This document shows positions 35,333-50,403 of a DNA stretch of 64,000 nt, in pieces. A model generated the notes under the pieces. It searched no databases, was not told the origin of the DNA, and saw only the letters and a list, made by a program, of their open reading frames with translations. Both the position numbers and the translations under genes were made by a program. The first letter of the stretch is position 1; each line of letters begins with the position of its first letter. This stretch comes from Alkalidesulfovibrio alkalitolerans DSM 16529 (lineage in GTDB: Bacteria > Desulfobacterota > Desulfovibrionia > Desulfovibrionales > Desulfovibrionaceae): positions 1 to 64,000 of the forward strand of contig NZ_ATHI01000030.1 in the NCBI RefSeq assembly GCF_000422245.1, given 5' to 3'.

Positions 35333-35920
35333 ATGCAGTTTCAGACCACGGAGATCCCCGGACTGCTGCTCATTATGCCCCGCGTTTTTCAAGACGAGCG
35401 GGGCTATTTCCTGGAATCCTTCAACGCCGGGGCTTTTGCCAACGCAGGCGTGGCAAGGAGCTTCGTGCAGGACAACCACGCCCATAGCCGTCAGGCCGGG
35501 GTACTGCGCGGTCTGCATTTCCAGGCTCCACCGCACGCCCAGTCCAAGCTCGTCTGGGTCACGCGGGGCGCGGTCTTTGACGTGGTCGTGGACCTGCGCG
35601 CGGGGTCGCCCACCTACGGGAAATGGAAGAGCTTCCTCCTCACGGCCGAGAACTTCGCGCGGCTGTTCATCCCGCGCGGCTTCGCCCACGGCTACGCCAC
35701 CCTGGAGCCGGACACGGACTTCATGTACAAGGTGGATGGCTACTACAACCCTGCAAGTGAAGGCGGGCTGCGCTGGGACGATCCCGACTTGGCCATCGAC
35801 TGGCCCGTGGTCGCGCCCGTCCTTTCTGACAAGGACCGGGGTCTGCCATCGTGGCGTGGCTTCCAATCTCCTTTCAACTACGAGAATCCTGCGAAACCCC
35901 AAGAGGGCAACCATGTCTGA
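35333..35920 (+). CDS. rfbC: dTDP-4-dehydrorhamnose 3,5-epimerase
   Basis: A 195-residue cupin-fold epimerase with the RmlC signatures VFQDERGYFLESFN, QDNHAHSRQAGVLRGLHFQ (catalytic His within the last part), GAVFDVVVDLR and FIPRGFAHGYATL. It epimerises C3 and C5 of dTDP-4-dehydro-6-deoxyglucose on the way to dTDP-rhamnose. The ATG at 35333 has AAAGGA upstream. The end overlaps the start of manC by 8 bases. The other rml genes are not in view, so rhamnose synthesis is split across loci. Confidence 0.93.
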   Translation: MQFQTTEIPGLLLIMPRVFQDERGYFLESFNAGAFANAGVARSFVQDNHAHSRQAGVLRGLHFQAPPHAQSKLVWVTRGAVFDVVVDLRAGSPTYGKWKSFLLTAENFARLFIPRGFAHGYATLEPDTDFMYKVDGYYNPASEGGLRWDDPDLAIDWPVVAPVLSDKDRGLPSWRGFQSPFNYENPAKPQEGNHV

Positions 35921-37352
35921 GAACGCCGCCACCGCCCCTCGGACTTCGGGCCACGCCATCATCCTGGCGGGCGGATCGGGCACGCGTCTTTGGCCCGTCT
36001 CGCGCACCCTTTTGCCCAAGCAACTCATGCCGCTTGGCGGGGACAAAAGCCTGTTGCAGCAGACAGTGTTGCGTGCGCTTCGGGTCTTTGCGCCCAAGAA
36101 CGTATGGGTGGTGACCAACGAGGAGCACGTCTTCGAGGTGCGCGCCCAGCTTCGCGCCCTGGACCAGGCCCTGACCGCCCAGGTGCTGGCCGAGCCCGTG
36201 GGCCGCAACACTCTGCCCGCCGTCCTTCTGGGGCTTGACCGCATCGTGGCGGCGGACCCTGCGGCCTGCGTCGCGGTGCTGCCCTCGGATCACATGATCA
36301 GCGCGGACGAGGGCTTCGACACGGACATCCGCGCGGGCCTCGCCATGGCGGCGAAGGGATATTTCGTGACCTTCGGAGTCGAGGCCGCCAAGCCCGAGAC
36401 GGGCTATGGCTACATCAGGCGGGGCGAGCCCCTGGCCCCCGGCGTCTTCGAGGTGCTGCGCTTCGCCGAGAAACCCGATCTGGAGACGGCCCGCGCCTTC
36501 GTGGCCTCGGGCGAATACTTCTGGAACAGCGGCATGTTCCTATTCTGCGTCGCGGAGTTCATCGAGGCCGTGCAGCGCTTCCAGCCCGCGTTGGCCGTCT
36601 GGTGGAAGAACCGCGCCAAGACGCCCCTGGCCTCGGCCTACGCCTCGCTTCCAGACATCTCGGTGGACTACGGCATCGCCGAGAGGCTCACTCGCCAAGC
36701 CGTGGTCAAAGCATCCTTCGGCTGGGACGACCTGGGCAACTGGGAGGCCATCTACCGTCTCGACGACAAGGACGAGTGCGGCAACGCCGTGGAGGGCGAC
36801 GTGCTGGCCCTGGATTGCGAGAACAACCTTTTGCTCTCGCGCGGCGGCAAGCTCGCGGCCGTGGGACTCAGCGACATGATCGTGGTCCAGACGCGCGACG
36901 CTACGCTCATCTGCCCCAAGGACCAAGTGCAGCGCGTCAAGGACGTGGTGGGCATCCTGAAAGGCCAGGGCAGCCGCCTCGTGGAGGCGCACGTCACGGT
37001 CAACCGGCCGTGGGGCAGCTACACGGTGCTGGAAGAGGGGGAGGGCTACAAGGTCAAGCGCATCAAGGTCCATCCCGGTGCGCGGCTCTCGCTGCAGATG
37101 CACCACCACCGCGCCGAACACTGGGTCGTCATCCGGGGGTCGGCCGTGGCCGAAGTGGACGGCGTGGAACACCTGCTCTCCGCGAACCAGTCCATCGACA
37201 TCCCCATGGGCGGCACGCACCGTCTCTCCAATCCCGGCAAGCTGCCGCTGGAGATCATCGAGGTGCAAAGCGGCCCCTACCTGGAAGAGGACGACATCGT
37301 CCGCTTCGACGACGTGTACGGCCGCATCAAGCCCGAGTCGGAAAAGGGCTGA
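35913..37352 (+). CDS. manC: Mannose-1-phosphate guanylyltransferase/mannose-6-phosphate isomerase
   Basis: A 479-residue bifunctional protein. The N-terminal nucleotidyltransferase has IILAGGSGTRLWPVSR (about residues 16-31), PKQLMPL, and FGWDDLGNW. The C-terminal type-II PMI cupin has NRPWGSYTVLEEG, HPGARLSLQMHHHRAEHWVV and the metal ligands. It makes GDP-mannose from mannose-6-phosphate-linked intermediates for surface polysaccharide. It overlaps rfbC by 8 bases, so the two form an operon for nucleotide sugars of the cell surface. Confidence 0.95.
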   Translation: MSENAATAPRTSGHAIILAGGSGTRLWPVSRTLLPKQLMPLGGDKSLLQQTVLRALRVFAPKNVWVVTNEEHVFEVRAQLRALDQALTAQVLAEPVGRNTLPAVLLGLDRIVAADPAACVAVLPSDHMISADEGFDTDIRAGLAMAAKGYFVTFGVEAAKPETGYGYIRRGEPLAPGVFEVLRFAEKPDLETARAFVASGEYFWNSGMFLFCVAEFIEAVQRFQPALAVWWKNRAKTPLASAYASLPDISVDYGIAERLTRQAVVKASFGWDDLGNWEAIYRLDDKDECGNAVEGDVLALDCENNLLLSRGGKLAAVGLSDMIVVQTRDATLICPKDQVQRVKDVVGILKGQGSRLVEAHVTVNRPWGSYTVLEEGEGYKVKRIKVHPGARLSLQMHHHRAEHWVVIRGSAVAEVDGVEHLLSANQSIDIPMGGTHRLSNPGKLPLEIIEVQSGPYLEEDDIVRFDDVYGRIKPESEKG

Positions 37353-37680
37353 CGTCCCTGGCGGCCGGGACGGCCGGGACGGCGTCAGGCGTGCATGGCA
37401 GCCATGGCGTCGTATGTGTCCGCGAAACGTTTTCCTTGAGCAGGCAAGGCGGACGGTGATGCTTCCCTCGACTTTCCATACCCCCGAAAACGAGGCGGAA
37501 TGAGGGGATTTGAAAATGCGAGATGATTGTAACTTTTTTCACTATCTTGCGCGGAAGAGACACCTGGGGTCTGTGAAAAATTTCCTAATCCCTTGACACG
37601 GCGCGGTCTATTTGCGAATAAGCCGCTGTCTGACCAGTGGCTGGCTTCCGTTGATTTCCTTAACTTCATGGGGCGTGTGT
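37353..37680. other. Gap before the qrc operon
   Basis: These 328 bases hold no gene. The first part has overlapping GC inverted repeats (CGTCCC...GGGACGG) just past manC that could stop transcription weakly. The second part is AT-richer and ends in the qrc promoter at 37593-37621 and a 5' untranslated leader of about 50 bases. Confidence 0.5.
37593..37621 (+). promoter_or_regulatory. Sigma-70-type promoter of qrcABCD
   Basis: A perfect TTGACA (37593-37598), a 17-base spacer and GAATAA (37616-37621) at the -10 place. The start would lie near 37628, about 53 bases before the qrcA ATG. Confidence 0.6.
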
Positions 37681-38241
37681 ATGAAGCGGAAAAGTGGCTT
37701 TGACTCCGGAGCGCTGGCGTTCGCCTTTGTCGGCCTGCTCTTCGGTCTCGGCTTCGGCTGGTTCGTCTTTCCGGAACTCCTGTTCAGTAAAGTAACGCAA
37801 CCCACTCCCTTCAACCACAAGATCCACATGGAGATGGCGGGCATGTCGTGCACCGACTGCCACTATTTCCGCGAGGATGGCTCCTTCAACGGCCTGCCCA
37901 CGACGCAGAGTTGTGCCGACTGTCACGCCTTCACCACCGGTGGGGACACCCCGGCGGACATCGCCATCGACAAATTCGTGACCGAATACGTCGAACCTGG
38001 CATCGAAGTGAAGTGGGAGGTCTATCAGTACCAGCCCGACAACGTTTTCTTCACCCATACCGCCCACCAGCATCTCGAGTGCACCGAGTGCCACCCCGAT
38101 GTGGGCAATTCTGAGACGACCCCGGTGCTGTATCGCAACCGGATCACCGGCTACAGCAAGGACACGATGAAGATGTGGCAGTGTGAGCGCTGCCATGCCG
38201 AAAACGGCGTCAGCAACGCCTGCTACATCTGCCACAAGTAA
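37681..38241 (+). CDS. qrcA: Qrc complex multiheme cytochrome c subunit QrcA
   Basis: A 186-residue membrane-anchored cytochrome. Residues about 10-30 form one hydrophobic N-terminal anchor (ALAFAFVGLLFGLGFGWF). The periplasmic part has five CXXCH heme motifs (CTDCH, CADCH, CTECH, CERCH, CYICH). Published QrcA is described as hexaheme; I see only five standard motifs here. QrcA accepts electrons from the periplasmic type-I cytochrome c3 and passes them to the rest of the complex. It is first in qrcABCD, 12 bases before qrcB. The ATG at 37681 opens just before the anchor. Confidence 0.92.
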   Translation: MKRKSGFDSGALAFAFVGLLFGLGFGWFVFPELLFSKVTQPTPFNHKIHMEMAGMSCTDCHYFREDGSFNGLPTTQSCADCHAFTTGGDTPADIAIDKFVTEYVEPGIEVKWEVYQYQPDNVFFTHTAHQHLECTECHPDVGNSETTPVLYRNRITGYSKDTMKMWQCERCHAENGVSNACYICHK

Positions 38242-38253
38242 AGGGGTAAGGGT

Positions 38254-40395
38254 ATGAGTCTGACACGCAGAGGATTTCTCTTCGTTCTGGGCGCAGGCGC
38301 AGGCGTGACCCTGAGCCCCGTGATGTGGAAACTGACGGACGACGTGTCCATCTGGACCCAGAACTGGCCGTGGATTCCCCGGCTGCAGTACGGTCCGCTG
38401 GACAGAAAGCCCGCACTTTCCAAGTCCTTCGCCGGCGGCTCCCCGATCCGGGTGCTGACCGTGGGCGGCCGCCCGTCCATCGCGCTGGGCAATCCCGACC
38501 ATCCGCTGTCCCAGGGGGCGCTTTCGGCCATGGCCGCGCCCGAGGTGCAGATGCTGTACCGGCCCTCGCGCATCGCCGGACCGCTCAAGAAGACCGCCGC
38601 TGGCGGGCACGAGCCCATTTCCTGGGAGGACGCCGCCGCGCTGCTGGCCGAAAAGGCCAAGGAAGCCGGTTCCTCCACGGCGGTAATCACCGGTGACATC
38701 AACGGCACCACCCGCGAGGTCTTCTCGGCCCTCCTGGGCAACCTCGGGTCCACCGAGATGTATCCCATGCCCTGCGAGCAGCAGACCGCCGCCATGGCCT
38801 GGAACGGCCTGATGGGCGGAAGCGGCCTGCCCGGCTTCGACATCGAGAACAGCGACTGTGTGCTGGCGTTGGGCGCCGACCTGCTTGAATCCTCGGGCAC
38901 CCCGGTGCGCAACGCCAAGGCGTTTTCCAAGGCTCGTCCCATGGGCGAAACGCCGAAGACGACCTGGATCGCCTGCGGCGCTCTCAAGAACCGCACTGCC
39001 GCCGTGAGCGACATCTTCGTGGCCGTGCCTCCGGGCGGCGAAGGCATCTTCGCCCTGGGTCTCGCCAACCTGCTCATCGCCTCCGGCGCCTGGACCATGG
39101 CTCCGGACTTCGAGACCTTCAGGTCGGTCGCCGCTGCCTGGACCCCCGCCCGGGTGCAGGAGGCCATCGGCGTGGCGCCCGAACAACTTGCCCTGGTCGC
39201 CGAAACCTTGAAGAAGGCCCGCCGTCCCCTGGTCGTGCCCGGCGCGGCCCCCGGACAGGGAGGCTCCCCCGCCGCCTACGCCGCGGGCTTGGCGCTGAAC
39301 GTCATCCTGGGCAACGTCGGTCAGCCTGGCGGCATCAGGCCGCTTCCGAGCCTGCCCGGAGTGGTTTCCGGGGCAATGACCCGCGAGGCCATGCTGGCCA
39401 AGGATCTGGTCGCGTGCCTCAAGGCCGTGGCCGCCGGAACCAAGGCCGCGCCCAAGCTGCTCATGGTGTACGAGGCCAACCCCCGCTACGCGCTGCCCGA
39501 GGCCGAGGCCATGAACGCCGCCCTGGACAAGGCGGGTTTCGTGGTCAGCTTCTCCTCCTTCATGGACGAGACCGCCGCCAAAGCCGACCTCGTGCTGCCC
39601 AACCCGCTCTCCATCGAACGCTTCGATGACCTGGAGACGCCCTACGGCTCCGGCTTCGTCTCCTACACCCTGGGCATGCCCGTGACAAAACCGGTTGTGG
39701 ACGCCAAGTCCTCTGCCGACGTCGTTCTCGGACTGGCCAAGAAGCTGGGCATGGACCTGGGTTTCTCCTCCTTCGAGGCTGTGCTCGAAGCCAAAATGGC
39801 GGCCGTCGAGGCCACGCCGGGCTTCATCGCCGGTCAGACCACGCCCTGGGACGCCATAGCCAAGGGAATCGAGCCCGTCGGCGCGGCCGTGGCCAGGGGC
39901 CTGAAGAGCGGCAAGGCCTTCGTGAGCGTACGCACCGTCGGCAACGAGGACGTGTACCTCGGCGCCTCGTCCCTGGCCAGGATCGTCGCGGTCAAGCCCG
40001 ACGGCCTGCTTCTCGCCCCGCAATTCCTGCTCAACGTCGGCACGCAGAACGTTGCGCTGCCGCCGCACAATACGCCGACCATCCGCCGCAACGAGCTTGT
40101 AGGCAAGGACCTCATGGTCTCCCTCAACGGTCAGACCGCCTCCGCGGCGGGACTCAAAGCGGGCGACCGGGTGAGTGTGACGTCTTCGGCGGGTTCGGTG
40201 AAAGGCAGGGTCTACATCGACGAATCCGTCATGCCCGGCGTGGTCTCGGCCCCCCTGGGCTTCGGCCGCACGGTCGGTGACGAGTTCTCCAAGGGCAAGG
40301 GCGACAACCTCTTCAAGGTTCTCACGGTCACCGAGGAAGCCGGCACCGGCAAGCCCACCTGGGCGTCTGTCGCGGTGCGGATCGCTAAAGGCTAA
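38254..40395 (+). CDS. qrcB: Qrc complex molybdopterin-oxidoreductase-like subunit QrcB
   Basis: A 713-residue protein of the DMSO-reductase family fold. It starts with a twin-arginine type signal (LTRRGFLFVLG, residues 3-13). It lacks the N-terminal Cys cluster typical of catalytic family members, and no metal-ligating Cys/SeCys/Ser site is obvious. This agrees with what is known of QrcB, a periplasm-facing subunit without Mo. Segments such as LVVPGAAPGQGG and NVGTQNVALPPHNTPTIRRN belong to the family fold. It probably has a structural role between QrcA and QrcC. Its end is 17 bases before qrcC. Confidence 0.93.
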   Translation: MSLTRRGFLFVLGAGAGVTLSPVMWKLTDDVSIWTQNWPWIPRLQYGPLDRKPALSKSFAGGSPIRVLTVGGRPSIALGNPDHPLSQGALSAMAAPEVQMLYRPSRIAGPLKKTAAGGHEPISWEDAAALLAEKAKEAGSSTAVITGDINGTTREVFSALLGNLGSTEMYPMPCEQQTAAMAWNGLMGGSGLPGFDIENSDCVLALGADLLESSGTPVRNAKAFSKARPMGETPKTTWIACGALKNRTAAVSDIFVAVPPGGEGIFALGLANLLIASGAWTMAPDFETFRSVAAAWTPARVQEAIGVAPEQLALVAETLKKARRPLVVPGAAPGQGGSPAAYAAGLALNVILGNVGQPGGIRPLPSLPGVVSGAMTREAMLAKDLVACLKAVAAGTKAAPKLLMVYEANPRYALPEAEAMNAALDKAGFVVSFSSFMDETAAKADLVLPNPLSIERFDDLETPYGSGFVSYTLGMPVTKPVVDAKSSADVVLGLAKKLGMDLGFSSFEAVLEAKMAAVEATPGFIAGQTTPWDAIAKGIEPVGAAVARGLKSGKAFVSVRTVGNEDVYLGASSLARIVAVKPDGLLLAPQFLLNVGTQNVALPPHNTPTIRRNELVGKDLMVSLNGQTASAAGLKAGDRVSVTSSAGSVKGRVYIDESVMPGVVSAPLGFGRTVGDEFSKGKGDNLFKVLTVTEEAGTGKPTWASVAVRIAKG

Positions 40396-40412
40396 GCCAA
40401 AGGAAGCGAGAG

Positions 40413-41204
40413 ATGGCTGCAAAGATAGATTACAAGATCAGGTGGGGTATGGCCATCGACCTGGACAAGTGCACGGGCTGCGGCGCATGCACCGTGTCTT
40501 GCCAGGTGGAGAACAACAACGCCCCCAACGTCGACGGCACCGACAAACTGCGCATCGTCAACTGGCTTTCCATATACCGGCTTGAGAACGGCAAGTCCTT
40601 CCCCGACGCTGACGTGGCCTACCTGCCGCTGCCCTGCATGCAGTGCGGAAACCCTTCCTGCGTGCCGGTCTGTCCGGTCATCGCCACGGAGAAGGGCGAG
40701 GAGGGCGCCATCGTCAGCCAGATCTCGCCGCGCTGCATCGGCTGCCGGTACTGCATGGCCGCGTGCCCCTACCACGTCCGGACCTTCAACTGGTTCGATC
40801 CGGTCTGGCCCAAGGGCATGGAGAAGACCCTCACGCCCTTCACCTCCACCAGGCCGCGCGGCGTGGTCGAGAAGTGTCACTTCTGCCACCATCGTTGGAC
40901 CTTCGCCAAGGAAAAGGCCCGCGTGGACGGCATGGACCCCTACAAGCTGCCCGAGGATGCCTACATTCCGGCGTGCGTCGAGATGTGCCCGAGCGGGGCC
41001 ATGGTCTTCGGCGACCTGAAGAATCCCGAGCACAAAGTGTACGAACTGGCCCGCAGCCCTCACGCGCGCAGGCTTCTGGAGAAGCTCGGCGGCGAACCGC
41101 AGGTGTACTACATCAGCCGTCGCGAATGGGTGCGCAACCTGATGGACAACCATCTGCCCGGCGAGACCGGCCACGGCAAGGCGGAAGGAGGCAACCATGG
41201 CTAA
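40413..41204 (+). CDS. qrcC: Qrc complex iron-sulfur subunit QrcC
   Basis: A 263-residue ferredoxin-like protein with sixteen cysteines in four groups: 20/23/26/30, 75/78/83/87, 108/111/114/118 and 155/158/188/192. The arrangement is that of the NrfC/PsrB/DmsB electron-transfer subunits and can hold up to four clusters. It carries electrons from the heme and QrcB side to QrcD. There is no signal peptide of its own; export together with the Tat-targeted QrcB is likely. It overlaps qrcD by 8 bases. Confidence 0.95.
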   Translation: MAAKIDYKIRWGMAIDLDKCTGCGACTVSCQVENNNAPNVDGTDKLRIVNWLSIYRLENGKSFPDADVAYLPLPCMQCGNPSCVPVCPVIATEKGEEGAIVSQISPRCIGCRYCMAACPYHVRTFNWFDPVWPKGMEKTLTPFTSTRPRGVVEKCHFCHHRWTFAKEKARVDGMDPYKLPEDAYIPACVEMCPSGAMVFGDLKNPEHKVYELARSPHARRLLEKLGGEPQVYYISRREWVRNLMDNHLPGETGHGKAEGGNHG

Positions 41205-42459
41205 GCCCATCGATCACGAACTCTTCCCCGAGGGCGTCGAGCGCTGCGCGCTGTCCAAGTTCCTGGTCTGGATGGCCTTTTGGACGGTCGTCTTCCTGGC
41301 GGGAATCTATGCGGCCTATGTCGTCTTCGCCAATGGCCTGGGCGTGACCGGTCTGAACAACTACTTCGCCTTCGGTCTGTACATTACCTTCGACTTGGCG
41401 GTCATCGCCTTGGGCGCGGGTGCCTTCTTCAGCGGCCTCCTCAGGTACATCCTGAAGATGGACGAGTTGAAGAACATCATCAACCTGACCGTCATCGGCG
41501 GCTTCTTCTGCTACTCGGGCGCCATGCTCATCCTGACCATGGAACTCGGCCAACCGCTGCGCTCCTGGTTCGGTTTCTGGCACGCCAACGTCCACTCCAT
41601 GCTCACGGAAGTCATTTTCTGCATCAGCTGTTACCTGGGCGTGCTGATCATCGAGTTCCTGCCGAACATCCTGGAGCAGCGGCAACTCAACCGGATCGCC
41701 TTCCTGCGTCACTTCGCCCACAACATGCACGTCTTCATGCCCCTCTTCGCGGGCCTGGGCGCTTTCCTCTCCACCTTCCACCAGGGCTCCCTGGGCGGCA
41801 TGTACGGCGTCATGTTCGCGCGTCCCTTCGCCTTCCGCGAAGGCTTCTTTATCTGGCCATGGACCTTCTTCCTCTTCGTCATGTCCGCTGCGGCCTCCGG
41901 TCCCTGCTTCTCGGTGCTCATCGTGAAATGTGTGGAGCTTTGCTCTGGCAAGAAGATGGTCTCCTGGAAGATCAAGCAGCTCATGGGTAAGATATCGGGC
42001 GCAATGCTCGCACTGTACCTCTTCTTCAAGCTCATCGACACCTACGACTGGGCCGTGAACCTGCTGCCCACGCTGGGCTTCACGTTCGACCAGATGTTCT
42101 ACGGCATCATCTACGGCAAGTGGCTGTTCTGGCTCGAATTGTTCGTGCTCGGCGTCATCCCGGCCGTCATCCTGCTGACCCCGCGCTGGCGCAACACGCC
42201 CTTCCTGTTCTGGTCGGCCTGCATCATGAACTGCCTGGGCATCTCACTGAACCGCTACACCATCACCGTGCAGGCCCTGGCCGCGCCCGTGATGCCCTTC
42301 GACACTTGGCAGATCTACGTACCCGCGTGGACCGAGATTCTGCCTTCGGTCATGGTCATCGCCTACGGCGTGCTCATCGTTTCCCTGGCCTACCGTTACC
42401 TGCCGGTCTTCCCGCAGGAGATCCAGCTGAACGCACCGGGGAACAAGGAAGCCGCCTAG
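41197..42459 (+). CDS. qrcD: Qrc complex NrfD-like membrane subunit QrcD
   Basis: A 420-residue integral membrane protein with about ten hydrophobic helices, of the NrfD/PsrC family. Segments include LVWMAFWTVVFLAGIYAAYVVF, the long ISCYLGVLIIEFLPNILEQ stretch, FMPLFAGLGAFLSTFHQGSLG and the final FWSACIMNCLGISLNRY. It holds the menaquinone site and couples quinone reduction to energy conservation. It follows qrcC with an 8-base overlap. A strong terminator ends the operon. Confidence 0.95.
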   Translation: MAKPIDHELFPEGVERCALSKFLVWMAFWTVVFLAGIYAAYVVFANGLGVTGLNNYFAFGLYITFDLAVIALGAGAFFSGLLRYILKMDELKNIINLTVIGGFFCYSGAMLILTMELGQPLRSWFGFWHANVHSMLTEVIFCISCYLGVLIIEFLPNILEQRQLNRIAFLRHFAHNMHVFMPLFAGLGAFLSTFHQGSLGGMYGVMFARPFAFREGFFIWPWTFFLFVMSAAASGPCFSVLIVKCVELCSGKKMVSWKIKQLMGKISGAMLALYLFFKLIDTYDWAVNLLPTLGFTFDQMFYGIIYGKWLFWLELFVLGVIPAVILLTPRWRNTPFLFWSACIMNCLGISLNRYTITVQALAAPVMPFDTWQIYVPAWTEILPSVMVIAYGVLIVSLAYRYLPVFPQEIQLNAPGNKEAA

Positions 42460-42482
42460 TTGTCTCTTCGCTCATGATTCCA

Positions 42483-42513
42483 AGGGCCCGCTTCTGGCGG
42501 GCCCTTTTTTTTG
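42483..42513 (+). terminator. Intrinsic terminator of qrcABCD
   Basis: AGGGCCCGC and GCGGGCCCT pair across a TTCTG loop and are followed by a run of T (TTTTTTTT). Confidence 0.93.
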
Positions 42514-42665
42514 GTGGCTAAAGACAGGGGGCGTGGGGCGCTATCTGGCGCATATGGCTTGAGCGAAATATATCCCGTTGACTTCGCGGCCCCTGAGGGT
42601 ACAACGAAATGCATCGTCGTCACGATGGCGGCGGTTTCGGGCGGGTTCGAAAGCGGGAGTGGGGC

Positions 42666-45197
42666 ATGGGACAGGCTGCGACTGACGCCGATCAGATTCC
42701 GGTCACTAAGCGATCCCTCTTTTCCTGGGTGTGGGAAAGCAGCCTCAAACTACAGATACTGCTTCTCGTCGTCATCGTCGTCACCGTCTTTGCCCGCGTC
42801 CTGCCCCTCGAATTCCAGAAGAAGATCATCAACACGGCCATCGGCCAACGCAACCTCGACCTTTTGCTGCTGTATTGCGGCTATTATCTCGCCGCAGTGG
42901 TCACGGCCGGGGTCCTGAAATACGTCATCAACGTCATTCAGACGCATCTGGGCCAGACCACTCTGGCCACCCTGCGCAAGAAGCTCTATGATCACATCTT
43001 GAAGCTGCCGCTCAGCTATTTCCGCAAGACCCAGCCCGGCATGGTCGTCTCCTCGTTGGTCACTGAGATCGTGCCCGTAGGCGAGTTCGTCGGCATGGCC
43101 CTGGCCGTGCCGCTGACCAACATCCTGACCCTGCTCGGTTTCGGCATCTACCTCTTCTATCTCAATTGGCAGATGGCGCTCATCACCATGGCCATCTACC
43201 CCATCGTCCTGCTGGTCATCCCGCGCCTGCAACGCAAGACGAACGAGGTCAACAAGAAACGCGTCGATGCGACGCGCGAGATTTCCTCGAACATCGCCGA
43301 AAGCATTTCCGGCATCCACGAGATCCATGGCAACGGCTCGTACGGCATCGAGAGCCGCCGTTTCGGCGCGCAGTGCGACACGCTGGAACGCTATCGCATC
43401 GTCTGGACCCTCTACAAGACAGGCGTCAAGGCGATCAACAATCTTCTCGTCAACCTCGCGCCATTCCTGCTTTTCCTGGTCGGCGGCTACTTGATCATCC
43501 AGGGCCGCTTCGATCTCGGCGCCTTGGTCGCCTTCCTCTCCGCGCAGGAGAAGCTCTTCGAGCCTTGGAAGGAGCTCATGGAGTTCTACCAAGTCTATCA
43601 GGACGCCTCGGTGCGCTACTCCAGGACAATGGAGTATTTCGACTTTCCCTCCGAGCACGTGCTCGTGGTCGCCGGGCGTGCTCCCTTGCAGCTCGAACCG
43701 CGCGTGGAGATAGAGAACCTCTCCTTCGAAGTCGAGGGTGGCATCCGTCTGCTGCACGACATCAATCTGACCGTGGAACCGGGCGAGCAGCTCGCCCTGG
43801 TAGGCTTTTCCGGTTCAGGCAAGAGCACGCTCGCCCTGTGCGTCGGTCAACTCTACAAATACACTTCCGGCTCCCTGCGCCTGGGCGGCCATGAGGTCAG
43901 CAGCCTCTCCAAACAGGACATGACCGAGAACTTGGGCTTCGTCTCGCAAAGCCCCTTCATCTTTACGGGAACCATCAAGGACAACCTGCTCTATGCGTGC
44001 GAGGCCGCCCTGCACGGCGCACCAGGGGTGGAGGGCGAAAACCTGCCGTCGCTCGACGACCAGATCGCGGTGTTGCAACAGGCGGGCATTTTCGTGGACG
44101 TGCTGCGCTTCGGCTTGAACGCAGTGCTCGACGAGACTGAGGACGAACGCCTCTCCGAGCGCATCATCCGCATGCGCGAAAGCTTCCGTCGGGATTACGG
44201 CGAGGCTTTGGCCGACATGGTGGAGTTCTTCGACGAGGGCCGCTATCTGGTCCATTCCAGCGTCGCCGCCAACCTGATTTTCGGTGGCGCACGCGATCCC
44301 GACTGGGCCGCGGACAAGTTGGCCGAGAACCATGAATTCACGGCATTTCTCGACGCAACCCAGACGCGAGGCCCGCTGCTCGCTTTAGGCGCGGAGATCG
44401 CCCGCACCACCGTGGACATCCTCGGTAACATGCCCAAGGACGCGGTGTTCTTCGAGCAGAGCCCAATCCCGGCCGAAGCCATCGAGGACTACAAGGAGAT
44501 CGCGAGGCGGCTTGAGCGCGGCCGGGTTGCCGACCTTCCGCCCGAAGACCGCACCCGGTTGCTCGATCTGGCCCTGGCCTTCGTTCCCGGACGGCACAAG
44601 ATGGTCGCCATGCCTCAGGTGCTCGAACGCATGCTCCTAGAGGCCCGCGCGGCTTTCCGTGAAAACGTCGAGGCCAGGCATCCGGGAGCTTTCACTTTCT
44701 ATCGTATGGACGAGTACCTGGGCTCACAGACCATCCTGGACAACATTCTGTTCGGCAAGGTGCGCAGTCAAAATCCCCAGGCTCAGGAGAGGATATCCCA
44801 GAGCATCATCCAGCTTCTCGTGGAGGAGGATCTTCTCGAATCCGTCGTGGCCATCGGCATGCGCTTCCAGGTCGGCAGCAAGGGCGACAAGCTCTCGGGA
44901 GGCCAACGCCAGAAGCTGGCCATCGCCCGCTGTTTCCTTAAACAACCGCGCCTGATGATCCTCGACGAGGCCACCTCGGCCCTGGACAACAAGTCGCAGG
45001 CGCGCATCCAGAACATCCTGGAGACCCGTTACAGGGGCCGCAGCACGGTCATCGCGGTGGCGCACCGCCTGGACATCATCATCAATTATGACAAGGTGGC
45101 GGTCATGAAGGCGGGCAAGATCGTCGAATGCGGCAGCTACCCCGAACTCATGGCCAAGAAAGGGAGCCTTTATGAACTCGTCCACGGAAAGAAATGA
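42666..45197 (+). CDS. ABC exporter with a large insertion in the ATPase domain
   Basis: An 843-residue half-transporter. Residues about 30-310 form an ABC type-I exporter membrane domain. The ATPase domain has Walker A SGSGKST near residue 382 and a Q-loop region FVSQSPFIFTGTIKDNL (about 425-441). The signature LSGGQRQK comes only at about 743, Walker B LMILDEATSALD at about 763, and the H-loop VAHRLD later. A normal ABC ATPase has about 100 residues between Walker A and the signature; here there are over 360. The extra ~230 residues (about 445-675) are helical and charged. A second DN-loop-like stretch (GSQTILDNILFGK) occurs just before the signature. The start is the ATG with GGGAGTGGGG upstream. 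The next gene begins inside its last codons. The substrate is unknown. Confidence 0.88.
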   Translation: MGQAATDADQIPVTKRSLFSWVWESSLKLQILLLVVIVVTVFARVLPLEFQKKIINTAIGQRNLDLLLLYCGYYLAAVVTAGVLKYVINVIQTHLGQTTLATLRKKLYDHILKLPLSYFRKTQPGMVVSSLVTEIVPVGEFVGMALAVPLTNILTLLGFGIYLFYLNWQMALITMAIYPIVLLVIPRLQRKTNEVNKKRVDATREISSNIAESISGIHEIHGNGSYGIESRRFGAQCDTLERYRIVWTLYKTGVKAINNLLVNLAPFLLFLVGGYLIIQGRFDLGALVAFLSAQEKLFEPWKELMEFYQVYQDASVRYSRTMEYFDFPSEHVLVVAGRAPLQLEPRVEIENLSFEVEGGIRLLHDINLTVEPGEQLALVGFSGSGKSTLALCVGQLYKYTSGSLRLGGHEVSSLSKQDMTENLGFVSQSPFIFTGTIKDNLLYACEAALHGAPGVEGENLPSLDDQIAVLQQAGIFVDVLRFGLNAVLDETEDERLSERIIRMRESFRRDYGEALADMVEFFDEGRYLVHSSVAANLIFGGARDPDWAADKLAENHEFTAFLDATQTRGPLLALGAEIARTTVDILGNMPKDAVFFEQSPIPAEAIEDYKEIARRLERGRVADLPPEDRTRLLDLALAFVPGRHKMVAMPQVLERMLLEARAAFRENVEARHPGAFTFYRMDEYLGSQTILDNILFGKVRSQNPQAQERISQSIIQLLVEEDLLESVVAIGMRFQVGSKGDKLSGGQRQKLAIARCFLKQPRLMILDEATSALDNKSQARIQNILETRYRGRSTVIAVAHRLDIIINYDKVAVMKAGKIVECGSYPELMAKKGSLYELVHGKK

Positions 45198-45708
45198 CCG
45201 TTGCGAGAGCAGGGAAACCTGCGAGTTCCAGCAGAACATCGACGTCTTCCGGCAGATAGCCTTTTTCGCCGGGTTGCCGCTGGAGCCGTTGAAGGTTCTA
45301 GCCTATCTGGCGGAACGCACCACCTTCAAGCCCGGCGAATGCCTGTTCCACGAGGGCGAGGCGGATGGCCAGGCCTTTTACATCCTGTCTGGACGGGCTC
45401 GTTTGGAGCGCTCGGGGGATGGGGCCGGCACGAAACTCACGAGCTACGGCCCGGGGGACTTTCTGGGCGGGTTGGCGCTCCTTGGCGACATGCAGCGCCT
45501 GTTTTCCCTGTGCGCGGAAAGCGAGGTCGAAGCCATGGTCGTAACACGCGAGAAGTTCGCCAAGACCCTGGCGCAGTTTCCGGAAATCCAGTCCCGATTG
45601 ATGGAGAACGTAGTCGATCTCGTGCGTGATTGGGAGAAGAGCTTCTTTTTCGATCACGCAGGCGCGTGCCAGGCATGCGCCGAGCATATCGGCGTAAGCC
45701 TGGTCTAG
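45172..45708 (+). CDS. Cyclic-nucleotide-binding-domain protein
   Basis: A 178-residue protein with one cNMP-binding (CRP-type) domain, about residues 30-150: FFAGLPLEPLKVLAYLAERTT, the GECLFHEGEADGQAFYILSG beta-roll and GPGDFLGGLALLGD. There is no C-terminal helix-turn-helix, so it is not a transcription factor of the CRP kind. A C-terminal CQAC pair could be redox- or metal-related. It overlaps the ABC exporter gene by 26 bases and is certainly co-translated with it. This suggests it senses a nucleotide or small ligand to control the exporter. Confidence 0.85.
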   Translation: MNSSTERNDRCESRETCEFQQNIDVFRQIAFFAGLPLEPLKVLAYLAERTTFKPGECLFHEGEADGQAFYILSGRARLERSGDGAGTKLTSYGPGDFLGGLALLGDMQRLFSLCAESEVEAMVVTREKFAKTLAQFPEIQSRLMENVVDLVRDWEKSFFFDHAGACQACAEHIGVSLV

Positions 45709-45718
45709 GGGGAGGAGC

Positions 45719-46366
45719 ATGGCGAGGGTTGAAATTCGGTCGGCGTGGCGCGCGTCGAGGTGTTTGATGCTTACGGCGGCGCTTCTTCTCCTTTTCACGG
45801 GAGTCGGTCACGCGCAGCGGCAGGCGCCCAAAGGCATTGCGGGCGTCACGCTCGGCGAGCACATCGAGCAGGCCGCGGACAAGGTGCGCAAGGAGACGGC
45901 TGGCGTGCCTTGGGGGCTTGGCCATCTGGAGCGGGCGGAAACCTTGCCGCTGCCCGGCTTTCGCAGCGGGTACGTCGAATACGGAACCTGCGCGCAGCCG
46001 GGCCGCATCGTGCGCATCAAGCTGAACTACGAAGACGAGTCCCTGCGCTTATTCAACACGCTGCTCGACGCCTTGAAAAAACGTTATGGTCAGCGGCCCG
46101 AATGGCGAGGCGACGCCTTCGGTACGCTCAAGGTCTGGAAATGGAGCATCCCGGATGGGAAAGGCAACAGCGTCAGTCTCATCCTGCAAAACTATCAGGG
46201 CGATGACGACAGCTATTCCGAGGGCACGTCGATCAGGCTCGGCGTTCGCAACTGGATCGACGACGAGATAGCCTGCGCCCGCAAGCGCGTCGAGAGGGAA
46301 CCCGCGCGTCCCGCGCCGACGGACGGCCGGGCGCGCGACCTTGACTGGCTGCTGCCGACGGACTAA
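45719..46366 (+). CDS. Secreted protein of unknown function
   Basis: A 215-residue protein with a signal peptide (basic start, LMLTAALLLLFTGVGHA, cut before QRQA). The mature part opens with PKGIAGVTLGEHIEQAADKV, a pattern common in small periplasmic proteins that begin with a GxTLG loop. There are two cysteines, no heme or lipobox. The C-terminal ~25 residues are Pro/Arg-rich. The ATG has GGGGGAGGAGC directly upstream. It lies 10 bases after the cNMP protein in the exporter operon and may work with it in the periplasm. Confidence 0.72.
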   Translation: MARVEIRSAWRASRCLMLTAALLLLFTGVGHAQRQAPKGIAGVTLGEHIEQAADKVRKETAGVPWGLGHLERAETLPLPGFRSGYVEYGTCAQPGRIVRIKLNYEDESLRLFNTLLDALKKRYGQRPEWRGDAFGTLKVWKWSIPDGKGNSVSLILQNYQGDDDSYSEGTSIRLGVRNWIDDEIACARKRVEREPARPAPTDGRARDLDWLLPTD

Positions 46367-46444: not shown

Positions 46445-46882
46445 ATGGATACGGTCGTCAGGTGTTCGTTCACGCTGGCCAACAGGCTGGGCGAACTCGA
46501 AAGCCTGCGCGAGAGGCTGGAACGCTTCGCCGACGAGGCAGGTCTTGGCCCGCGCGGGCTGTTCGAGATCAACCTCGTGCTGGACGAGTTGGTGACCAAC
46601 ATTATCAGCTACGGGTACCCGAGCGAGGAAACGCATTTCATAGACCTTTCCCTGAGCGTCGAAGGCGACGAACTGACGGCCGTAATCGAGGACGCGGGCA
46701 TACCCTTTGACCCGCTTTCGGCCAAGTCGCCCGATATCGACGCGCCCATCGAGGAGCGCGGTGTGGGCGGCCTTGGCATCCATCTGGCCCGGAACATGGT
46801 CCGGGAGATGCACTACGAGCGGCGTGACGGACGAAACGTTCTGACGCTGAAAAAGCGCGTGGATCGCGCGCGAGGAGTTTGA
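46445..46882 (+). CDS. RsbW-type anti-sigma factor serine kinase
   Basis: A 145-residue GHKL-fold ATPase with the N-box EINLVLDELVTNIISYGYP (about residues 41-59), the G1 motif IEDAGIPFDP and the G2 motif GVGGLGIHLARN. Such kinases bind a partner protein and phosphorylate the serine of a STAS-domain antagonist. The antagonist is the next gene, 7 bases downstream, so the two form a partner-switch module. The target may be a sigma factor or another protein, since no sigma gene is adjacent. The same strand and tight spacing link them to the ABC-exporter genes. Confidence 0.88.
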   Translation: MDTVVRCSFTLANRLGELESLRERLERFADEAGLGPRGLFEINLVLDELVTNIISYGYPSEETHFIDLSLSVEGDELTAVIEDAGIPFDPLSAKSPDIDAPIEERGVGGLGIHLARNMVREMHYERRDGRNVLTLKKRVDRARGV

Positions 46883-46889
46883 AACAGCC

Positions 46890-47222
46890 ATGCGCATGAG
46901 CGAGGAGACCAACGGAGACGTGGTGGTGCTGTCCGTGGCGGGCAGGCTCGATTCCAATACTTCCGGGGAGTTCGAGGATCTTCTTTTGGAGCGCATACGC
47001 GGCGGCACGCGCAAGCTCGTGCTGGACTTCCAGGCCCTGGAGTACATTTCGAGCGCTGGACTGCGGGTGCTGCTCAAGGCCACCCGTGAGGTCAAGGCTC
47101 AGGGTGGCAAGATGGTCATCTGTCAGGCAAGGGATTATATCCAGGAAGTCTTCGATCTCTCCGGATTCACGGCCGTGTTTTCCCTTTCGCCCGACATAGC
47201 CGGGGCCTACGCGCAATTCTAG
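46890..47222 (+). CDS. STAS-domain anti-sigma factor antagonist
   Basis: A 110-residue single STAS domain. The phosphoacceptor region is LEYISSAGLRVLLKA (about residues 50-64), where the second serine of ISSAG is the usual target. VVLSVAGRLDSNTSGEFED is the N-terminal strand-helix. It would bind and release the kinase encoded just upstream depending on phosphorylation. The start codon is 7 bases after the kinase stop. No phosphatase gene (RsbU/SpoIIE type) is in view. Confidence 0.9.
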   Translation: MRMSEETNGDVVVLSVAGRLDSNTSGEFEDLLLERIRGGTRKLVLDFQALEYISSAGLRVLLKATREVKAQGGKMVICQARDYIQEVFDLSGFTAVFSLSPDIAGAYAQF

Positions 47223-48446: not shown

Positions 48447-48654
48447 GCGTCCTCCAGGCGCCGCGATTCGGCGCACGGCGCACCCTAGCGCAAGGTGGGC
48501 CGGGAAGGAAGCGCATTGGTCCGGGGGGCCCGTGTATTCATGCCGCCTTGGACGTGATTCGGCATTTGATTTGTCTTGAAATGCAACGTGTTACCGTTGC
48601 CAAGAAGGCGCGCGGACTTGACGCCGGGGCCAAAAGGTGGTCAAGCTCGCCCGC

Positions 48655-50403
48655 ATGCACGCTGAGGATAACGTCGGATCGCCTCGCGCGCCTCGTTCGG
48701 AAGCCGCCCTGATTGCGGCGCGCGCGATCGAGGCGCTGGCGCAGCATGTGGCCGTTTGTGACGCCTCGGGGCGTGTGGTGCTGGCCAACGCGGCCTGGCG
48801 CGGTTTCGCGAGTACGCAGCCGGACGGAGAGTGTTTCCGGCCGATTGTGGGCGAACCCTGCCGGGGCGTCCGTCTGCAAAGCCCCGATGGCCCTGTCTGG
48901 ATGGGTGAACAAGAGATTTCGGACGTCATTGCGGGCAGGGCACCGGAGTTCTCGCTTCGCTATCCCGTCTCCACAACGCTTGGCACGCGCTGGTTCGCCA
49001 TGCGCGTGACCCCGCTGGGGCTGCCCGAAGGACCGGGCGCGCTCGTGGTGCATGAAGACGTCACGGAGTGTGCCGACCTCGAAGACGAATTGACGCATCA
49101 CGCCCTGCACGACCGCCTCACGGCGCTGCCCAATCGCGCCCTGCTCCTGGACCGTCTGAACATGGCCGTGAAACGCGCCAAACGGCGAGGCACGGCGAAC
49201 TATGCGTTGCTCTACCTCGATATCGACCGCTTCAATGTGGTCAACGAATCGCTTGGTCACGTCTCCGGCGACATGCTGCTCATGGCGCTTGCGCACCGGC
49301 TGCTCGGTGTGACCAAGGAGATGGACACTCTGTCTCGCTTCGGCAGTGACGAGTTCGCGCTCCTTCTGGAGGACGTGGAAAGCCCCGGCGCAGTTGGCGA
49401 GGTCGCCGAGCGGGTTCTCGAACGCGTGCGTCAGCCGTTCAGTCTCAAGCGCCGTTCCGTCGTCGTCACCATGTCCATCGGCATCGTCCTTGGCTCCACG
49501 GACTACGAAAACGCAGGCCAGGTGCTGCGCGACGCCGAGACGGTCATGCACAGGGTGCGCGAGGGCGGTGGCGGACGCTACGAGATTTTCAGTGAGGCCA
49601 TGCGCGTGAGCGCGGGCAAACGCTTGCAACTGGAGATGGACCTGCGCAAGGCCCTGGACGCGGGCGAGATCGGCGTCCACTACCAACCCATCGTCTCGCT
49701 TGCGGACGGCCAGCTTCGCGGCATGGAAGCCCTGGCCCGCTGGCGGCATCCCGAACTCGGCATGGTTCCGCCCATGGAGTTCATCCCCGTGGCCGAGGAG
49801 ACCGGGCAGATCGTCTCCCTGGGCCATTTTGTCCTGCGTCGGGCCTGCACCAAACTAGCCGAGTTGCAGCGCCGCTATCCCGGCGTCGAGGCGTTGACCA
49901 TGAACGTCAACATCTCCGGCGCGCAGTTCGCCCGGCCCGAGTTTGCCGACGAAGTGCGCGAGGTCATCGAGGAGACGGGAATCCGGCCGGGCAGCCTCAA
50001 GCTCGAACTGACCGAGAGCGTGATCATGGCCGATGCCCGCAAGGCCGTGGACTCCATCCGCGCCCTGCGCGATCTGGGCGTGCACGTGGTCATCGACGAC
50101 TTCGGCACGGGCTACTCCTCGCTCTCCTATCTGCAGCGCTTCCCGGTAAGCTGCCTGAAGGTGGACCGCAGCTTCGTGCTGACCATGGCGGACACCAAGG
50201 GCAACCGCGAGATCGTCAAAACGATCATCAAGATGGCGCACAGCCTGGGGCTCGAAGTGGTGGCCGAGGGCGTGGAGCAGGCCGAGCAGCTTGAAATCCT
50301 CGCGGGACTGTCCTGCGAGAGCGGGCAGGGTTTTCTCTTCTCCAAACCGCTGGACGATCAGGATCTCGACATTCTTCTGCACGAGCGCCTGGGATCGGTC
50401 TGA
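48655..50403 (+). CDS. PAS-GGDEF-EAL cyclic-di-GMP protein
   Basis: A 582-residue cytoplasmic protein. Residues about 20-135 look like a PAS sensor (HVAVCDASGRVVLANAAW). Residues about 145-310 are a GGDEF domain whose signature reads GSDEF, so cyclase activity is doubtful or changed. Residues about 325-575 are an EAL phosphodiesterase domain with the signature MEALARWRHPELG, the NVNISGAQF segment, LTES and DDFGTGYSSLSYL, all intact. It most likely degrades c-di-GMP, possibly activated by GTP binding to the GGDEF domain. No membrane segment is present. The start is ATG 48655; a GTG at 48637 is possible. Related to motility or biofilm control. Confidence 0.9.
   Translation: MHAEDNVGSPRAPRSEAALIAARAIEALAQHVAVCDASGRVVLANAAWRGFASTQPDGECFRPIVGEPCRGVRLQSPDGPVWMGEQEISDVIAGRAPEFSLRYPVSTTLGTRWFAMRVTPLGLPEGPGALVVHEDVTECADLEDELTHHALHDRLTALPNRALLLDRLNMAVKRAKRRGTANYALLYLDIDRFNVVNESLGHVSGDMLLMALAHRLLGVTKEMDTLSRFGSDEFALLLEDVESPGAVGEVAERVLERVRQPFSLKRRSVVVTMSIGIVLGSTDYENAGQVLRDAETVMHRVREGGGGRYEIFSEAMRVSAGKRLQLEMDLRKALDAGEIGVHYQPIVSLADGQLRGMEALARWRHPELGMVPPMEFIPVAEETGQIVSLGHFVLRRACTKLAELQRRYPGVEALTMNVNISGAQFARPEFADEVREVIEETGIRPGSLKLELTESVIMADARKAVDSIRALRDLGVHVVIDDFGTGYSSLSYLQRFPVSCLKVDRSFVLTMADTKGNREIVKTIIKMAHSLGLEVVAEGVEQAEQLEILAGLSCESGQGFLFSKPLDDQDLDILLHERLGSV

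Follow-up and report, generated by a model that had tools for sequence, protein, structure and literature searches.

The 64,000-nucleotide stretch of the Alkalidesulfovibrio alkalitolerans DSM 16529 genome analyzed here (contig NZ_ATHI01000030.1, positions 1 to 64,000; hereafter the window) carries two overlapping genes on its forward strand. One encodes an ATP-binding cassette (ABC) exporter half-transporter of 843 residues (42666..45197), and the other a 178-residue protein with a cyclic nucleoside monophosphate (cNMP)-binding domain (45172..45708). Judged by its sequence, the first is a homodimer-type, MsbA/ABCB-like type IV ABC exporter whose nucleotide-binding domain (NBD) holds the helical subdomain three times in tandem. 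We read the ABC gene from an in-frame ATG at 42666, within a longest open reading frame starting at 42609, to a stop codon at 45195-45197. Pfam recognized ABC_membrane and ABC_tran in its translation, with the transmembrane domain at residues 32-298 (42759..43559; PF00664, E 2.1e-37, 129.7 bits against a cut-off of 28). In the second protein, PF00027 (E 8.5e-18) was the sole Pfam family above cut-off, and no helix-turn-helix or other DNA-binding domain was detected with Pfam, as an earlier preliminary description of this DNA had proposed. That description had also placed the overlap correctly, at 26 bases (45172-45197), although it called the genes fused; in the window they overlap and are not fused. 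The sequence AAGGGAG (45160..45166, + strand), which probably serves the cNMP gene as its ribosome-binding site, lies within the ABC gene. Because the pair was found again in many other genomes, a local sequencing or assembly error is excluded.

The ABC protein contains a Walker A motif (GFSGSGKST, residues 380-388; 43803..43829), a Q-loop Gln at residue 428, the ABC signature LSGGQ (residues 743-747; 44892..44906), a Walker B motif (LMILDE, residues 763-768; 44952..44969) and an H-loop His at residue 800. The distance from Walker A (residue 380) to LSGGQ (residue 743) is therefore 363 residues. We compared this spacing across 36 loci from the same genome and its relatives. The motif pair was present in 34, three of them members of the triplicated family and 31 ordinary sequences, the latter representing 29 distinct genes because two genes of the window's own genome were fetched twice. 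In 31/31 ordinary sequences the spacing was 104-111 residues: 104-106 in the 28 distinct ABC_membrane exporters, and 111 in L118, which is another kind of ABC protein. Judged by this spacing, the ordinary exporters examined have one helical subdomain per NBD. Thus, the previously noted motif placement and abnormal spacing were confirmed, and a long insertion is present; its excess over ordinary spacing is ~259 residues, rather than the ~230 first estimated. A DN-loop-like pattern occurs three times, as TIKDNLLYA (436-444), SVAANLIFG (532-540) and TILDNILFG (689-697). The earlier observation of a second such stretch holds as far as an extra stretch is concerned, but there are two extra ones.

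The inserted part of the nucleotide-binding domain

In ABC transporters, it is through the helical subdomain that ATP hydrolysis is coupled to the membrane domain. An alignment of the family showed one segment of this region three times in tandem. Profile comparisons were then made on 64 sequences, comprising the window protein plus 63 from the 80 named loci (L034-L113), which are the best 80 of at least 188 relatives found in a scan of GTDB species genomes that only samples taxonomic breadth. Closed reading frames of at least 780 residues without X were required, which 72 sequences passed; a further nine were removed at 88% identity.

The copies and linkers follow one another on the + strand. 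Copy 1 (residues 418-484; 43917..44117), which holds the Q-loop Q428 and TIKDNLLYA, is supported by profile matches to the ordinary NBD and to the other two copies. Linker helix 1 (residues 494-511; 44145..44198), placed by AlphaFold2 secondary structure and hhalign, resembles linker helix 2. Copy 2 (residues 519-586; 44220..44423; VEFFDEGRYLVHSSVAANLIFG) contains VEFFDE and SVAANLIFG, is supported by hhalign and by a structural match to CFTR NBD1, and carries neither the Q-loop Gln nor a signature. It is followed by a copy-2-specific segment (residues 590-645; 44433..44600), for which the alignments revealed no counterpart in copies 1 and 3, and by linker helix 2 (residues 651-671; 44616..44678), placed by AlphaFold2 and lying inside the range superposed on CFTR NBD1 5tf7. 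Copy 3 (residues 676-742; 44691..44891; FTFYRMDEYLGSQTILDNILFG), supported by hhalign and the ordinary-NBD profile, runs into the signature.

Profile comparisons within the 64-sequence alignment related all three copies to one another. hhalign gave E 2.8e-6 (score 33.2, probability 88%) for copies 1 and 2, E 3.5e-5 (score 28.1, probability 72%) for copies 1 and 3, and E 1.7e-8 (score 43.9, probability 95%) for copies 2 and 3, while the best of 66 control comparisons in the same alignment reached a score of 19.0 and E 0.0047. The copies also matched the profile of ordinary NBDs: copy 1 with E 2.8e-13 over 27 columns at the Q-loop end, copy 2 with E 1.8e-6 over 63 columns reaching the signature, and copy 3 with E 1.9e-5 over 32 columns at the Q-loop end. 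All three fall within the Q-loop-to-signature stretch of that profile. The two linkers, one behind copy 1 and one behind copy 2, matched each other as well (E 1.3e-5). The residues Asn 440/536/693 and Arg 504/661/755 do not vary across the 64 sequences. We had considered a foreign inserted domain, and dropped it once the three tandem copies appeared in the alignment and outscored the controls. The insertion is not foreign: it consists of two additional copies of the helical subdomain of the NBD itself, both degenerate, which match one another and the ordinary NBD. Consequently, the proposal of a regulatory domain inserted inside the ATPase was right about the location within the ATPase domain, and the inserted regulatory domain gives way to a copied subdomain.

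Structure prediction, which the preliminary description had suggested as a check, agrees with this result. The full-length AlphaFold2 model had a mean predicted local distance difference test score (pLDDT) of 83.8, with the insertion at about 90. Among 997 re-aligned PDB chains, the TAP1 NBD (4k8o) aligned over 250/254 residues at 2.4 Å. Thus, the model contains an entire canonical NBD, with the extra part sitting beside it. Residues 486-676 folded alone reached a pLDDT of 92.6. When 342 Foldseek candidates were re-aligned to this segment, the top three were CFTR NBD1 structures (5tf7, 5tf8 and 5tfi; Z scores 5.5, 5.4 and 5.3), whose matches fall in residues 492-570 (72 residues at 2.5 Å for 5tfi). 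The row following CFTR NBD1 had a Z of 3.1, and P-glycoprotein 478-549 was matched at Z 2.3. We take the matched CFTR and P-glycoprotein ranges to extend from the Q-loop to the signature helix. The CFTR scores are modest and would be insufficient alone.

The putative cNMP-domain partner and the neighboring genes

A cNMP gene adjoins the transporter gene in 75/80 named loci and overlaps it in 74, overlaps being called on the longest reading frame and thus upper bounds. Adjacent cNMP genes also occur in Sinorhizobium meliloti, R. etli and Mesorhizobium, with glycosyltransferase genes near each. In Azospirillum thermophilum (1020 residues), Ruegeria (1035 residues) and Sulfitobacter (1034 residues), the cNMP domain is fused to the C-terminus of the transporter; these alphaproteobacterial ABC-fold proteins have degenerate ATPase motifs (L161:4501-7560, L162:4501-7605 and L164:4516-7617). 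The family search proposed earlier therefore recovered the same neighbor pairing in many genomes and the fusion in three Alphaproteobacteria, and the suspected link between exporter and cNMP protein is borne out as a conserved one. Of all the evidence, this fusion speaks most strongly for joint function of the two proteins.

The phosphate-binding-cassette region of the window cNMP protein (GDFLGGLALLGDMQRLFS, residues 95-112; 45454..45507, + strand) has Gly100 at the position of the CRP Glu and Arg109 at that of the CRP Arg. We take these CRP residues to be E72, the ribose-binding Glu, and R82. Among 97 distinct proteins out of 106 adjacent cNMP proteins, the Arg82 position is Arg in 70. The cNMP proteins of S. 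meliloti and L157 (a more distant member, described below) keep GE...RTA-type motifs. On its sequence, cyclic AMP binding by the window protein is doubtful. Two adenylate cyclase families were searched for in the window's genome: class I matched at two places, and class III matched nowhere. The class I matches lie in two very long open frames of 1334 and 1362 residues (G000:C11:83360-84376 and G000:C31:233605-234597).

Downstream, the gene order in the window is ABC, cNMP, a 215-residue protein, an RsbW-like protein and a STAS protein. The RsbW-like protein is a kinase-type ATPase (HATPase_c_2; 46445..46882, + strand; PF13581, E 1.3e-24), and the STAS-domain protein is of the anti-sigma-factor-antagonist type (46890..47222, + strand; PF01740, E 1.9e-21; TIGR00377 above cut-off). 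We counted such neighbors at the 70 loci whose sequence extends at least 2.5 kb downstream, considering same-strand genes up to 3.5 kb downstream. An RsbW-like gene was present in 42/70, a STAS gene in 46/70, and both in 40/70. At L053, L064, L080, L107 and L112, both genes are encoded on the other strand, 3-6 kb upstream. Another neighbor cluster was found at 26/80 loci; its one scanned representative, located beside the module, is a MASE10-SpoIIE phosphatase-type protein (L037:6853-8307, - strand). The 215-residue protein (45719-46366) had no Pfam or NCBIfam match; its relatives occur near the same module in other genomes, several of them on the opposite strand at a distance of ~2.7-3.5 kb downstream. 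A PAS-GGDEF-EAL protein, of the type involved in cyclic di-GMP turnover, is encoded near the module at 48637-50403.

Upstream, four genes (37666-42459) encode, according to Pfam, multihaem cytochrome c, molybdopterin-type, ferredoxin-type and NrfD membrane subunits, and resemble the quinone reductase complex QrcABCD. Beyond them, a protein of the mannose-1-phosphate guanylyltransferase/mannose-6-phosphate isomerase type, a glycan-precursor enzyme, is encoded at 35850-37352. A terminator-like hairpin with an 11-pair stem and a T run (42482..42506, + strand) lies 3' of the upstream operon and sets the gene pair apart from it; the ABC gene thus probably begins a new transcript. The number of terminator-like sites in this region (7, against 4.5 with a standard deviation of 2.2 in shuffled sequences) is no evidence for the hairpin, which the stem length and the T run alone favor.

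Distribution, catalytic motifs and known systems

The insertion matched 11/39 relatives and, across the phylum, 20/297 genomes; both counts include the window's own genome. Within the best 80 of the at least 188 relatives, records are titled sulfate-reducer lineages, Syntrophobacterales or "Deltaproteobacteria", with one Candidatus Aminicenantes (L065). The L065 member is 58% identical to the window protein and lies on a contig with that title; we regard it as contamination or recent transfer. In the phylum of L065's genome 2/199 genomes matched, and in the class of G482 2/142, both times L065's genome and G482. The G482 open frame (L157) has at least 885 residues in the locus, three copies and an adjoining 153-residue cNMP frame. 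Alphaproteobacterial coverage consists of plasmid records: the insertion query matched 242 of these, all from Alphaproteobacteria among the genera listed and mostly from Rhizobium and Sinorhizobium, and an Azospirillum query matched 261, gaining Ruegeria and Sulfitobacter. A search of viral contigs yielded no relatives. Among viral structures, the best matches were for the most part to ABC proteins of the ordinary kind and to SMC/Rad50-type proteins. PADLOC gave partial matches only, to ATPase and cNMP/TIR models.

Of the aligned members, 64/64 carry Walker A, Q428, LSGGQ and H800; Walker A occurs in six variants, each ending GKST, and Walker B D767 and E768 are invariant. We also aligned six alphaproteobacterial sequences, from S. 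meliloti, R. etli, Mesorhizobium, Azospirillum, Ruegeria and Sulfitobacter. The three copies align and their Asn is kept, but four residues of the ATPase motifs (Walker A Lys, Q-loop Gln, Walker B Glu, H-loop His) are missing from 6/6; L157 keeps them. A tree of 24 triplicated and 28 ordinary proteins, built by a quick method with the triplicated columns left out, splits the two groups with one change of state. The 23 triplicated proteins besides L157 group at support 98, and the alphaproteobacterial six at 100; L157 and L118 form long branches.

The window protein has the transmembrane fold, core NBD and catalytic motifs of MsbA/ABCB type IV exporters (TIGR02203, TAP, P-gp, Sav1866). It differs from them in its spacing, 363 residues against the ordinary range given above, and in the two extra subdomain copies. 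Its best NCBIfam match, the MsbA lipid A exporter model TIGR02203, scored 326.1 bits, below the 602-bit equivalog cut-off. UvrA and Rad50/SMC are soluble ABC ATPases in which coiled coils or other domains are inserted between Q-loop and signature. The window protein carries its insertion in the same region, but repeats its own subdomain and does so in a membrane exporter. The cNMP protein shares the PF00027 domain with CRP/FNR regulators; unlike them, it has no DNA-binding domain, its clade nearly always lacks the cassette Glu, and it is linked or fused to a transporter. It also matches TIGR03896 (cyc_nuc_ocin), bacteriocin-type and transport-associated by name, weakly (E 3.6e-6), and is not a member (26.6 bits against a cut-off of 161). 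In MlaB-MlaF, a STAS protein is bound to an ABC ATPase, a precedent for such binding by a small regulatory-fold protein. The window exporter belongs to a different ABC class, and the cNMP-fold protein is its putative partner.

The S. meliloti 1021 relative lies at pSymB 841723-844996, in a record without gene names, and may be SMb20813. MsbA2 was also considered and dropped because its neighbors differ: msbA2 (SMb21191) is reported to lie in a four-gene operon starting with SMb21188, an acyltransferase, and including two glycosyltransferases (PMC3687685). SMb20813 is named the homologue of msbA in another study (PMC10945364). The available portions of PMC3687685, PMC12239276 and PMC10945364 contain no description of triplicated-subdomain anatomy. 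A literature search, made mostly by title and abstract and with subscription papers mostly outside it, returned no description of this anatomy or of the fusion. The earlier remark that no characterized example is known is upheld, since no described family with a known function emerged from the libraries and literature searched. Within these searches, this is an ABC exporter branch with an NBD layout that is nowhere described.

Proposed regulation of the exporter and its alternatives

Our model suggests that a cNMP-fold subunit docks on the extra helical subdomains and regulates the exporter, a reading that we favor by a narrow balance of judgment. A canonical NBD would form from the core and one copy's worth of helical subdomain, and the ~250 extra residues would pack alongside it as an enlarged helical lobe. 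The cNMP-fold subunit would then dock on this lobe and adjust the coupling between the NBD and the membrane domain. In the window's clade, the input to this subunit would probably be a protein partner or a non-canonical ligand, rather than textbook cyclic AMP, and the neighboring RsbW/STAS pair is the obvious candidate partner. By analogy, the exporter probably carries an envelope component resembling a lipid or glycan, because MsbA is the nearest family model and glycosyltransferase genes are neighbors in rhizobia and Sulfitobacter. The interpretation offered in the preliminary description is thus partly supported; its gating by a nucleotide signal is not supported as written, since the cassette Glu is absent in 95/97 cNMP proteins.

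Several observations weigh against our model. The residue at the CRP Glu72 position is Glu in 2/97 proteins and otherwise Gly (56), Ala (13), Ser (13) or others. No adjacent cNMP gene is present at 5/80 loci (L038, L088, L097, L108 and L113), and the RsbW-like and STAS pair was not found in the searched stretch at 30/70. Lengthening the copies to include the linkers weakened the E values (1.5e-5, 1.3e-4 and 1.9e-7). Compared with the true signature helix, the linker segments gave no supported profile match (E 0.059 and 0.15); as they match each other and not that helix, the length of the repeat unit is approximate. Foldseek returned no match at E <= 0.001 for residues 486-676 alone, and the CFTR score of Z 5.5 is below the tool's recommended level of 8. 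The branch uniting all triplicated proteins including L157 has a support of 8. The substrate proposal draws on neighbors in other organisms. Finally, the six alphaproteobacterial sequences no longer have the ATPase motifs, which rules out ATP-driven export as a function common to all members of the family.

Some of these points would equally suit an ordinary lipid or glycan flippase, in which the extra subdomains and the cNMP-fold protein serve assembly or stability, with no signal gating. We consider this explanation unlikely, yet the most serious of the rivals. The near absence of the cassette Glu, the intact ATP motifs and MsbA-like core, and the loci lacking an adjacent cNMP gene all fit it. 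It accounts less well for a pair kept across phyla and fused in three relatives, for regulatory-type neighbors at 40/70 loci, and for the GE...RTA-type cassettes of S. meliloti and L157, which suggest a ligand-binding ancestor. The loss of catalytic residues in 6/6 alphaproteobacterial sequences, which nevertheless keep three copies and the cNMP domain, would instead suit a protein that is chiefly a switch, sensor or gated channel-like ABC protein and not a pump. Nucleotide binding by its NBDs would set a state that the cNMP subunit and RsbW/STAS read, hydrolysis having been dropped in Alphaproteobacteria. Partner-switch genes adjoining the module are consistent with this idea, but the full catalytic set in 64/64 Desulfobacterota-type members argues for hydrolysis there, and we hold it to be improbable. 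It is very improbable, in our judgment, that the insertion is an unrelated helical domain whose three DN-like stretches arose by convergence. The low identity between copies (14-18%) and the structure searches, with no significant Foldseek match and a modest CFTR score, would allow this; all three copy pairs outscore the 66 controls, however, the copies match ordinary NBDs, and CFTR NBD1 is the top structural match over the same segment.

Returning to the regulated exporter, a broader version of the model would make the family a separate ABC branch in which the triplicated subdomain is the receptor for the cNMP subunit. Its ancestor would have been ligand-gated, and the module would have become wired to a phosphorylation switch in sulfate reducers, and ATPase-dead and cNMP-gated in Alphaproteobacteria. 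We offer this version as speculative and rather doubtful; if it were true, the alphaproteobacterial form would be an ABC-fold counterpart of cyclic-nucleotide-gated channels. The finding also provides a function hypothesis for adjoining proteins of the "Crp/Fnr family" that have no DNA-binding domain. A lineage with three helical subdomains, kept despite a dead ATPase and tied to a cNMP domain, would aid the study of how the ABC motor is regulated from outside its core.

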